NCBI RefSeq assembly: GCF_000337915.1 | Contig: NZ_AOJE01000057.1 | Location: 78,719-142,718, forward strand | Origin: Halorubrum saccharovorum DSM 1137 | GTDB lineage: Archaea > Halobacteriota > Halobacteria > Halobacteriales > Haloferacaceae | Direction of reading: 5' to 3' | Length of the DNA: 64,000 bases | Part shown: positions 43,482 through 46,997 of the stretch, one piece after another | Layout of the letters: each line of letters opens with the position of its first letter | Numbering within the stretch: the first letter of the stretch is position 1 | The notes under the pieces: generated by a model | Told to the model about the DNA's origin: nothing | Seen by the model: only the letters and a program-made list of their open reading frames with translations | Databases searched by the model: none | Translations under genes and position numbers: made by a program

Positions 43482-43612
43482 CGGACAGCGCTACTGTAAC
43501 CGACGACAAAAGCTACTTTGGTGAAACACCCACTCGACAGTGCTCAATACAGCACCTGCGTGGATTGACGCACAACCCGGCCAGTAAAGTGTAGTGTGAG
43601 CGAACGACCACT

Positions 43613-43957
43613 ATGCGACGGTCTATTCGGTACGCCCTCTCGACGGTTGTCGGTCTGGGAGTGATGACGCCGGTGGTAATTGTCGGTGGCAGTAGCCTCA
43701 GCGTCCTCGTAGCGATTCCGTTCATATACGGGGCGACAACAGAGCTCATGCTCGACAATCTCACAAAATTTCAACAAACTATGCGTGGCGAGTCACGGAA
43801 GATAGGGATGATTGGCGCCGGTATCAGCGCTGGAAGCACAACCGGCCTGCTACAACAGTCAGTCGCAGTAGGAATTGTGGGATTCGGGCTATTCATTTTC
43901 GGCATAGCGCTGACCATCGCAGATCCTGTAATCGTTGTAGACCCTGACAGTCAGTAG
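43613..43957 (+). CDS. Small membrane protein next to an IS end relic
   Basis: 114 residues, four hydrophobic stretches (about 5-25, 28-45, 62-78 and 82-105), giving a compact membrane protein. I do not recognise it. Its stop is some 60 bases before a relic of the IS5-type right end (44019-44066), the same arrangement as the small membrane gene at 44744-44944. Confidence 0.55.
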   Translation: MRRSIRYALSTVVGLGVMTPVVIVGGSSLSVLVAIPFIYGATTELMLDNLTKFQQTMRGESRKIGMIGAGISAGSTTGLLQQSVAVGIVGFGLFIFGIALTIADPVIVVDPDSQ

Positions 43958-44018
43958 ACCGGTACGGCTCGCGGTAACGAGCTGTATTGAGTGTTAAATA
44001 CGCACCTTCCAACAACCA

Positions 44019-44066
44019 GTTGTTTCAGGCAAGAACCTATCTGAAGAAGAGGATTTCGACAGAGCC
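44019..44066 (+). repeat. Relic of the IS5-type element right end (1)
   Basis: Reads GTTGTTTCAGGCAAGAACCT ... GGATTTCGACAGAGCC and matches the right end of the intact element (46941-46989: AACTGTTTCAGGCAAGAATA ... GGATTTCAACAGAGCC) with few differences. No transposase gene lies to its left within range. Confidence 0.75.
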
Positions 44067-44139
44067 GAGCGTCATAAATCCAAACCGTTTTGATTGGGTA
44101 ATTCATCCTCTTATTTAACCGGCTGTTATAATCTCGCTT

Positions 44140-44649
44140 ATGAACCAATTCCAAATTCTTCCGGGAAATTGTGTGGTACATGATAACCATATCGAGATCG
44201 AAAGTAACAAAATCACTAGAGCTAAGCGTCTCCTGAAAAATAGCTATACACTACAAATAATTCTGTCAACAACAGCTCTCTATCTGATATTGTCTATTGT
44301 TTTTAATTCTAGTATATTTATCCGAGAAGTCGCGGTAAATGGCTTAGTTAGCGGTGTACTTTTAGGAGTCTTATTATTATCAGGAAAATACATTTACAAT
44401 AGGTATTTTGGAGTCTCTGACAAAACTAAAATTGAGCTTGGAACAATCCAACAGATCATCTTATCCAAATCAAATAAGATCGGTCACCCACACATGATCA
44501 TACAGTATCAGGAGAATGACTCTGAAAAACTCCGAGTAGTTCAATTGATGCCGACGTGGTCTAAGAGTGAAACAGGTACTCTATCAGATGTTGAAGATAT
44601 TTTAGTCCAAAATGGGTTGAATGTGAAATATCGTGAGGATCTTGAGTAA
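44140..44649 (+). CDS. Membrane protein of unknown function, AT-rich
   Basis: 169 residues. A soluble start of about 30 residues is followed by two or three helices (LQIILSTTALYLILSIVFNS, and VSGVLLGVLLLSGKYIYNR), then a beta-rich cytosolic part (MIIQYQENDSEKLRVVQLMP). Codon use is much richer in A/T than in the surrounding genes, a sign of foreign origin. It lies between two right-end relics of the IS5-type element. Function unknown. Confidence 0.6.
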   Translation: MNQFQILPGNCVVHDNHIEIESNKITRAKRLLKNSYTLQIILSTTALYLILSIVFNSSIFIREVAVNGLVSGVLLGVLLLSGKYIYNRYFGVSDKTKIELGTIQQIILSKSNKIGHPHMIIQYQENDSEKLRVVQLMPTWSKSETGTLSDVEDILVQNGLNVKYREDLE

Positions 44650-44743
44650 CTTTTTTTGACTTCAGCCGCGCAACCCCGGAAGTATCGACTGTAAATCGTT
44701 CAGTACAGGGAACGTATTTCCTATTGAAGTCAGTAATTGAAGT

Positions 44744-44944
44744 ATGAACGAGGTCCTCCGTTTCGACTTGGAGAATCCGTGGGTATACCTATTCACGAAC
44801 ATTGTTGTCTGGGTCGTAGTCGTTAGTACCATCCAAACGGTTCTCTTCGACGGTGAGTTGACTGGTGCGGTCATCAGGGGAACTGGCGGCGGTTTCGTTT
44901 GTGGAATTACGATGCTCTATCTCAGGAAAAAGGACTGGTTCTGA
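44744..44944 (+). CDS. Very small two-helix membrane protein
   Basis: 66 residues with two helices (VYLFTNIVVWVVVVSTIQTV, and AVIRGTGGGFVCGITMLYL) and a basic end (RKKDWF). It resembles small membrane proteins of prophage or plasmid DNA. Not recognised. It ends 30 bases before a second right-end relic (44975-45025). Confidence 0.5.
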   Translation: MNEVLRFDLENPWVYLFTNIVVWVVVVSTIQTVLFDGELTGAVIRGTGGGFVCGITMLYLRKKDWF

Positions 44945-44974
44945 CACATTCGGTCAATACGCAGTTCTCATTGA

Positions 44975-45025
44975 CAGGCTGTTTCAGACGATAATGTGTC
45001 TGAAGAAGAAGAGTTTAACAAAGCC
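44975..45025 (+). repeat. Relic of the IS5-type element right end (2)
   Basis: Reads CAGGCTGTTTCAGACGATAA ... GAGTTTAACAAAGCC. It keeps the GTTTCAG...TCTGAAGAAGA...AACAnAGCC pattern of the other copies, but is more diverged than the one at 44019. Confidence 0.65.
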
Positions 45026-45032
45026 ACAGAGC

Positions 45033-45524
45033 CTATTCTTCCTCTCTGGATGTCCGGAACGATTCTTTGAGCGCGTTTCGAAGAATGCTGTTATCTAATT
45101 CATGTTCTTCAATCCCCTTACTGGTTGCTCGGAATCCGATTCCCTCGTCGTTCAGAAAAGCAACAATGAGTGGGTAAAGTTCCTGACCCCTTTCTGTGTC
45201 CTGAATCTCATCTGGCACCTCTATCATATCATACGATACTTCACCGTTCTCGACTTTTTCTGGGTCTAGGCCAATCCACGTGGCTATCGCTTGATCGTCC
45301 TCGTTAGTATAGTGGCGGATAACTTGGTAGAAATCGAATGGATCTTCCGGACGTATACCGCGCTGAACGATAGATTCTGTCTCCTCGTATCCTCGTTCGC
45401 GTATTTTCTTGTCGAGATCTGCGAATTTTGTGGTATCGTAGACCCTCTCCAAGAGCATATCTCGTTTCTGCCCAACCACCTGCTGCCTCGAATTTCCACG
45501 ACCGTTTTCGTTATCCTTGCTCAT
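45033..45524 (-). CDS. Unknown soluble protein
   Basis: 163 residues, charged, no membrane segment. TKFADLDKKIRERGYEETES, IRHYTNEDDQAIATWIGLDP and a C-terminal EEHELDNSILRNALKESFRT give a mostly helical protein. I do not recognise it. It ends next to a right-end relic and starts 15 bases before the intact IS5-type element, so its upstream control region may have been separated by the insertion. Confidence 0.55.
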   Translation of the reverse strand: MSKDNENGRGNSRQQVVGQKRDMLLERVYDTTKFADLDKKIRERGYEETESIVQRGIRPEDPFDFYQVIRHYTNEDDQAIATWIGLDPEKVENGEVSYDMIEVPDEIQDTERGQELYPLIVAFLNDEGIGFRATSKGIEEHELDNSILRNALKESFRTSREEE

Positions 45525-45591
45525 TTTGTATTGCTATTCGGCTCTGTTGAAATCCTCAGAGAGTTACAGGTTCGTCCTGTAATTCGACGAG

Positions 45592-46413
45592 ATGAGCACC
45601 CTCCCAAAGTCACAGTTACTCCGATTTACAGAGAAGGCGATCAATCTGGCACGCCGAGCGGTTTCTCGATACTCTTCAAAATTCTCCAAACATCGTTATA
45701 CACTCCCACAGCACGTTGTTCTGCTGTGCCTCAAAGTTCGGAAGAATACGACCTATCGTGGCCTGCTTGACGAGTTGATCGAGATGCCACGCATCCGTCG
45801 TGTTCTTGGCTTAGTCGAACTTCCCACGCCATCAACGCTCTGTAAAGCGTTCAATCGGCTTGATATGGCCGTATGGCGTGTCTTATTGACCCTCTCAGCG
45901 ACGCTACTTCCGACAAGTGGCGTCGTTGGAGTCGATGCGTCAGGATTCGATCGTAGTCACGCCTCGAAACACTACACGAAACGAGCCGAACTCACGATTC
46001 AGCAACTCAAAGTGACTCTACTGGCCGATACGAGGGTGAACGCAATTATCGATTTACACGTGACGACGACACGAAAACACGATAGCCAGATTGCTCCGTC
46101 GTTGATCAAGCGCAATCTCGAGCATATTGACGTCCTGCTCGGTGACAAAGGGTACGACGACCAGAAAATCAGACGACTTGCCCGTCAACACGACGTTCGT
46201 CCACTGATTAAGCACCGTGAGTTTACATCGCTCCACAAGGCATGGAACGCACGCTTAGAGGCTAATCTCTACGGCCAACGAAGTCAATCCGAAACCGTCA
46301 ATTCAACACTCAAGCGGAAGTACGGTGCGTTCGTCCGCTCACGACGATGGTGGAAGCAATTCCGTGAGCTCACCATCGCCTGTCTCATTCACAATCTTGA
46401 CCGATCACTCTGA
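45592..46413 (+). CDS. IS5-type DDE transposase
   Basis: 273 residues, 52 bases inside the left end. Markers are LPTPSTLCKAFNRLDMAVWR, the first Asp in VVGVDASGFDRSHASKHYTK, the second in VLLGDKGYDDQKIRRLAR and the Glu in RSQSETVNSTLKRKYG. The gene is intact and ends SLIHNLDRSL-like (CLIHNLDRSL). With perfect ends and target duplication the element is probably active. Its N-terminal layout resembles the fragment at 901-1138. Confidence 0.92.
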   Translation: MSTLPKSQLLRFTEKAINLARRAVSRYSSKFSKHRYTLPQHVVLLCLKVRKNTTYRGLLDELIEMPRIRRVLGLVELPTPSTLCKAFNRLDMAVWRVLLTLSATLLPTSGVVGVDASGFDRSHASKHYTKRAELTIQQLKVTLLADTRVNAIIDLHVTTTRKHDSQIAPSLIKRNLEHIDVLLGDKGYDDQKIRRLARQHDVRPLIKHREFTSLHKAWNARLEANLYGQRSQSETVNSTLKRKYGAFVRSRRWWKQFRELTIACLIHNLDRSL

Positions 46414-46453
46414 CCGGTCAAGATAGTTTCCACACACTGTTCAGTCCAGACTA

Positions 46454-46855
46454 TTATCGGACAGTCACGAGACCCGCGAGAACGAGTAATGCACTATACG
46501 AAATCCCTAACAGCGGGGTGCTGAGACTGGAGGTCGAATCAATTGTGAGCCAGAGCGCAGTACCCAAGCAACTGAGCGCGACGAGTGAGCTGAAGATTTC
46601 GATACGACGTGGCTTGGCAGTCCCAGTACGGAATCGGCTATACAGAGCGTGTCCAAGCACAGCGATAGGGAAGACGCCTGCGACCACGACCGCGAAATGA
46701 ACTGCAACCACGCCTGCCATGTTGAGTGCTGGTATAATGTCTCTCATAAGTGTCCCAAGAGCGTATACTCCGAGCAACCCCACCAAGAGAACCGCAAGGG
46801 AACGTTCGACGCTACTGGCCGACGGACGCGGGAAGCGGGAAACCGTCTTACCCAT
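46454..46855 (-). CDS. Passenger membrane protein inside the IS5-type element
   Basis: 133 residues from ATG at 46855; the frame is open to a TTG at 46942, within the right end, and an ATG at 46882 is another choice. Four hydrophobic helices: SLAVLLVGLLGVYALGTL, GVVAVHFAVVVAGVFPIAVL, FSSLVALSCLGTALWLT, and LGISYSALLVLAGLVTV. No transposition role is known for such a protein. It faces the transposase gene tail to tail. Either a passenger carried as cargo or a chance capture. The family is not recognised. Confidence 0.6.
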   Translation of the reverse strand: MGKTVSRFPRPSASSVERSLAVLLVGLLGVYALGTLMRDIIPALNMAGVVAVHFAVVVAGVFPIAVLGHALYSRFRTGTAKPRRIEIFSSLVALSCLGTALWLTIDSTSSLSTPLLGISYSALLVLAGLVTVR

Positions 46856-46997
46856 GCTAAACTCTCTCGTCCAAAGCGTCATAAAGTCACCGTCAAGAAG
46901 CCGAGATACTCTATTGAATAGTTCGCAGTCCTCATCGGCCAACTGTTTCAGGCAAGAATATACCTAATGAATAGGATTTCAACAGAGCCTGCTATTC

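Follow-up and report, generated by a model that had tools for sequence, protein, structure and literature searches.

The window, a stretch of 64,000 nucleotides from Halorubrum saccharovorum DSM 1137, contains an insertion sequence (IS) that encloses, in addition to a transposase gene, a gene for a small membrane protein unrelated to transposition. This raises the question of whether such a passenger was trapped once at this locus or is a regular component of a family of mobile elements. We conclude that the window element is very probably an autonomous member of a haloarchaeal, ISHla2/ISHxa2-like IS5 system of single-gene cargo elements. The features of the locus are collected in Table 1.

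Table 1. Coordinates of the cargo-bearing element and of the neighbouring cargo blocks in the window
Feature	Position	Strand	Description or evidence
Left-truncated transposase-less cassette	43527..44066	+	~95% identical to complete TIR+TSD cassette L234
114-aa membrane-protein gene of truncated cassette	43613-43957		
Right end of truncated cassette	44021-44066		TIR with 1 mismatch
Second cargo block	44067..45026	+	169-aa gene match to L073/L091/L111
169-aa membrane-protein gene	44140-44649		also cargo of transposase-bearing L073/L091/L111
66-aa membrane-protein gene	44744-44944		
Decayed right end of second block	44951-45026		
Target-site duplication (TSD), left copy TGCTATTC	45532..45539	.	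sequence; single copy in G115 empty site
IS5-family element with cargo	45540-46989		1450 bp; 17-bp TIRs and 8-bp TSD
Left terminal inverted repeat (TIR) GGCTCTGTTGAAATCCT	45540..45556	+	TIR comparison
IS5-family DDE transposase, 273 aa (relatives annotated ISHla2, ISHxa2)	45592..46413	+	NCBIfam NF033579, Pfam DDE_Tnp_1
Cargo-slot border on transposase side, CGGTCAAGATAG.. (family consensus CGGTCAATACAG)	46414..46427	+	homology to sister elements stops here
Cargo gene, 133-aa four-helix membrane protein	46454..46855	-	hydropathy, homolog alignment, dN/dS
Right-end module ("end A", ~65 bp), common to family elements and cassettes	46925..46989	-	
Right terminal inverted repeat	46973..46989	-	17 bp, pairs with left TIR
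Target-site duplication, right copy TGCTATTC	46990..46997	.	sequence

The window element and its passenger

The transposase matches the NCBIfam model NF033579 (transpos_IS5_2) with 211 bits (E=2e-62, cut-off 140) as well as DDE_Tnp_1, and its closest named relatives are those of ISHla2 from H. lacusprofundi and ISHxa2 from Halopiger xanaduensis, at about 91-92% amino acid identity. Membership of IS4 or its IS231 subgroup was rejected, as the best curated match is to IS5 and the IS4 model scores below its own cut-off. Transposase matches were found in 104 of 171 genomes of the same taxonomic family, and a search of phage records and viral contigs returned no relatives. The TIRs are 100% complementary over 17 bp; a preliminary description of the locus had rightly called them perfect but had made them one base pair too short, at 16 bp. 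Its 8-bp duplication is present on both sides, and with the profile match, the TIRs and the TSD its reading of the locus as an intact IS5-type element is borne out, both marks of the family (an IS5-type DDE transposase, and matching TIRs with a short target duplication) being found here. At up to three mismatches, the 16-bp TIR sequence occurs six times in the window, compared with 0.52 expected occurrences. A composite transposon was dismissed, there being one transposase, a single pair of TIRs and no two complete flanking IS copies.

Only 7 bp separate the insertion from the start of the downstream gene on the minus strand (45033-45524), so that it probably lies in the promoter region of that gene. 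When we searched with the joined flanks, an uninterrupted target with one TGCTATTC was retrieved from another Halorubrum genome (G115, locus L240), the joined flanks being 96% identical. A complete, identical 1450-bp element with a 100% identical transposase, the same cargo and a different TSD, ACATCCTC, resides in plasmid pCBA1230-02 of Halolamina sp. CBA1230 (L072/L219), and Halorubrum trapanicum DSM 12287 (L039) has the right end plus the cargo, 100% identical over 537 bp, in a third location. The latter contig departs from the window element directly after the cargo stop (L039:3490-3583) and ends 93 bp later; the unlike sequence is perhaps another IS. Because there are a second insertion with its own TSD, a third site and an empty site, the element evidently transposes whole, cargo included, as had been proposed for the entire 1450 bp. 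It has an unrelated passenger inside its TIRs together with a transposase, and the passenger transposes with it, which agrees with the earlier suggestion of a transporter IS (tIS); the copies at L072 and L039 carry the same gene.

The passenger protein displays about four hydrophobic segments and had no match in Pfam, NCBIfam or PADLOC. The four-helix gene first noted on the opposite strand is real, but the longer start then assigned to it is not preferred: because the homolog at L195 has a stop in the upstream extension and homologs align from M30, the gene most likely starts at ATG 46855 (133 aa), and the 162-aa frame from TTG 46942 was rejected. The frame is under purifying selection, for which the preliminary description had proposed a check. 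In comparison with a Haloquadratum homolog (L040/L194, 88%, where the adjacent DNA that would place it inside or outside an element reads N), dN/dS is 0.35 (p=0.001), with 20 synonymous differences over 113 sites and 21 nonsynonymous differences over 310; two further copies give 0.32-0.39. The gene thus looks functional, or was so until recently, although homologs that are not part of any element may account for most of this selection. More diverged homologs (L197-L202, about 42-50% identity) show no such ends within the fetched flanks, which is consistent with an origin of the passenger as an ordinary haloarchaeal gene. We also observed that the 100% identical copy in Halolamina (NZ_CP054589.1, 186520-186918; L219) corresponds to no gene listed in the PLSDB table, so that small membrane genes of this type may be widely missed in annotation.

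Cargo turnover and transposase-less cassettes

A comparison of relatives sharing these ends, also proposed in the preliminary description, revealed that nearly all of them bear a gene in the corresponding slot, usually a different one. Among the fetched loci, about 99 elements have paired ends; 44 of these have a TSD with 0-1 mismatch and are 1.18-3.28 kb long, while about half lack a matching duplication as a result of decay, nesting or mis-pairing. Between similar transposases and the right end, we found 74 cargo regions or clusters without mutual DNA match. These encode small membrane proteins, lipobox proteins and pilin-like proteins as well as soluble ones, for example cytochrome P450, TrmO, RibD-like and HD proteins and a PAS histidine kinase. 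TSD-verified transposase-bearing elements nearly always have an ORF in the cargo slot, and the shortest TSD-verified elements still have membrane ORFs of 55-68 aa; some cargo regions, such as those of L177/L178 and L223, hold no convincing gene, and a related outgroup element of 937 bp (about 45% amino acid identity) has no cargo. In the family itself, cargo is the rule and not the exception.

The same cargo was shared by 36 of 36 element pairs with a transposase DNA identity of at least 97%, by 2 of 13 pairs at 95-97%, by 1 of 26 at 93-95% and by 1 of 226 at 90-93%, counts that describe the family and do not constitute a test, the pairs not being independent. This drop below 97% indicates that cargo is replaced faster than the transposase diverges, with a switch beyond 3-5% transposase difference. 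The exact structure of L025 and L026 is less certain, because inside both a single N lies between duplicated overlaps of about 89 bp, the mark of a scaffold joint, and these draft copies need care. The cargo element at L133 has itself received an insertion: a related IS sits inside it, flanked by a perfect duplication of its own, GTTGAAAC.

The ends are not confined to transposase-bearing elements. At up to one mismatch, the end sequence was present in all 53 Halorubrum genomes, with 1211 ends in total and none for a reversed-pattern control. The genome of origin contains TIR pairs that lack a transposase, have 8-bp duplications (0-2 mismatches) and enclose single genes; two such cassettes are inserted inside a third. 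In 20 sampled loci of other Halorubrum genomes we identified 13 TIR pairs with a duplication at 0-1 mismatch, none with a transposase and 10 with a predicted membrane-protein ORF. In another genus, L195:557-2073 likewise has TIRs, the duplication ATGCACGT and no transposase, and encloses three membrane-protein genes, among which is the homolog of the window cargo. With IS ends and a TSD around a gene and no transposase, these relatives have the make-up of mobile insertion cassettes (MICs), presumably mobilised in trans by the cognate transposase. At L210:4431-6130, a 1700-bp cassette with a lipoprotein gene contains two small complete cassettes of 477 and 373 bp, each with a perfect duplication and a small membrane gene.

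Acquisition of cargo

Beside the window element, positions 43527-45026 form an island of two cargo blocks, each closed by a right-end module. Elsewhere, several elements retain what look like remnants of former ends. In L103, a right end with two mismatches is found 79 bp past the transposase, followed by about 700 bp of cargo and an outer second end, to which a perfect duplication belongs. In L091 and L111, the 169-aa cargo is followed by a cassette in inverted orientation whose inner end has decayed; these elements use the far end of that cassette. Because such elements keep decayed internal ends before added cargo, they suggest capture by end-skipping, and together with the island in the window they look like stages of this process between neighbours. 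Opposite the shared right module, the cassette end looks like a left end fused to CGGTCAATACAG, the motif of the transposase tail. Loss of a transposase segment would produce this structure, and we infer that cassettes arise in this manner.

In the mechanism we propose, the transposase moves DNA between two copies of the ends GGCTCTGTTGAAATCC..., creating an 8-bp duplication. Autonomous units are built of a left end, the transposase, the cargo and a right end, in this order, and cassettes of end, gene and end, with movement presumably in trans. Where elements are adjacent or nested, transposition most likely picks the more distant end and thereby gains new cargo; the skipped inner end then decays, and loss of the transposase segment yields a cassette. 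This capture mechanism is testable, since elements with a decayed inner end can be seen that look like its intermediates.

Cargo might instead be exchanged by homologous or site-specific recombination at the shared borders, i.e., the CGGTCAATACAG border and the right-end module, without recourse to alternative ends. Sister elements indeed lose their homology at most a few bases from the transposase stop and regain it at the right module, the two borders are similar to each other in inverted orientation, strongly so in the 67-70% subgroup, and the 66-aa cassette is inverted in L091/L111 relative to the window. Outside that subgroup, however, most border repeats do not exceed the 95% level of shuffled sequences, and the rank of an element's own border pair is near chance (mean 0.52), for which reason the border repeat was rejected as a general recombination site. 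The retained internal ends also indicate end-skipping. We therefore regard exchange at the borders as doubtful, although the border motifs could conceivably have some role in recombination.

Function of the cargo and comparison with known systems

The cargo of the family is strongly biased toward membrane and lipid-anchored proteins. A transmembrane segment or lipobox was predicted for 42 of 59 cargo ORFs (71%) and for 93 of 591 flanking ORFs (16%; p=1e-18), and after applying a codon-position filter for gene-likeness, for 34 of 45 and 60 of 284, respectively (p=2e-12). ORFs of 50-220 aa were considered, and the same hydropathy and lipobox rules were applied to cargo and flanking DNA; these are simple and crude, and an annotated control would be better. 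Our initial control consisted of random segments, but because these cut genes and could thereby favour the cargo, it was redone with complete ORFs and the gene-likeness filter. PADLOC returned a single match (MkoB) among all 66 cargo proteins; the bulk of the cargo thus does not consist of known defence genes.

These data bear on why the genes are carried. The preliminary description had left open whether the passenger is helpful or trapped, and a trapped one-off is at odds with the finding that almost all relatives carry a gene, mostly for a membrane or exported protein. Neutral hitch-hiking on a larger scale, in which short genes are trapped by chance and the bias reflects tolerated or common short genes in IS-rich islands, would fit the many unrelated cargo families, their occurrence in both orientations and the degraded or unconvincing part of the cargo (L177, L223). 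Yet size-matched ORFs of the same islands encode membrane proteins or lipoproteins far less often, most comparable cargo pairs have a dN/dS of 0.14-0.45, and certain cargo families recur in different vehicles; we consider this explanation rather unlikely. That the membrane protein serves the element itself, for instance by regulating or targeting transposition, is highly improbable: the near-constant presence of an ORF in the slot of TSD-verified transposase-bearing elements speaks for it, but the cargo varies between elements and is not conserved, transposase-less cassettes bear the same types of genes, and the diverged homologs of the window cargo lie at loci without such ends in the fetched flanks.

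We infer instead that small envelope-protein cargo persists owing to an occasional benefit to host or element. An anti-virus role can be offered purely as a hypothesis. In its most far-reaching form, this reading would amount to a distributed, integron-like cassette economy, in which hundreds of single-gene units travel between haloarchaeal genomes by means of one IS5 transposase family and selection has specialised them for small envelope proteins, so that the cell surface is varied, for instance in defence against haloviruses; in this full form we deem it unlikely.

Passengers unrelated to transposition are known from tIS, which, like mobile insertion cassettes, are a named kind of element (PMC3129680). 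The haloarchaeal elements include such passengers too, but whereas tIS are known as isolated members, here an entire subgroup carries passengers, and the cargo turns over rapidly. Passenger-carrying ISs are usually seen as occasional curiosities; in this case a whole archaeal IS subgroup, together with non-autonomous cassettes, appears to shuffle single genes across genera, mostly for membrane and lipid-anchored proteins, and the element behaves like a swappable gene-delivery cassette. Shuffling of this kind would let haloarchaea acquire and lose surface genes directly, and it would account for many orphan small membrane proteins on haloarchaeal plasmids. The ISHla2 locus likewise has a small annotated ORF after its transposase, and the literature searched, in which subscription journals were thinly covered, contained no description of a passenger role for ISHla2/ISHxa2 or of the cargo of the family.

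Two haloarchaeal cases are similar in description. Hlac_3088, the passenger of a Halorubrum lacusprofundi transposon, is predicted to be a surface protein and has been proposed as an obstacle to virus attachment (PMC10544981); the transposon, with transposase Hlac_3078, is treated there as a single case. HqIRS32, an ISH2-type MITE of Haloquadratum, is a transposase-free element with TIRs and one ORF, and the only coding MITE described in that species (PMC3119063). Integron gene cassettes depend on an integrase and attC, in place of which TIRs and 8-bp duplications mark the haloarchaeal units.

In design, IS231/MIC231 comes nearest; it also combines passenger-bearing ISs with mobile insertion cassettes. 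IS231 of Bacillus cereus comprises modular IS copies of the IS4 family with extra DNA and passenger genes, a modularity that a 2008 survey had so far not seen in other IS families (PMC2266710), and MIC231 cassettes occur beside them (PMC2266710; MIC231 is also cited in PMC6542083). The two systems differ in IS family and host (IS4 in Bacillus cereus, IS5 in archaea), in the place of the cargo, which lies between the left end and the transposase in IS231 and between the transposase and the right end in the haloarchaeal family, and in its nature, with resistance, virulence and metabolism on one side and a preference for small membrane proteins and lipoproteins on the other. The window element is thus an instance of a widespread single-gene cargo system that resembles IS231/MIC231 in its working but belongs to the IS5 family and to archaea and favours cargo for the cell envelope.
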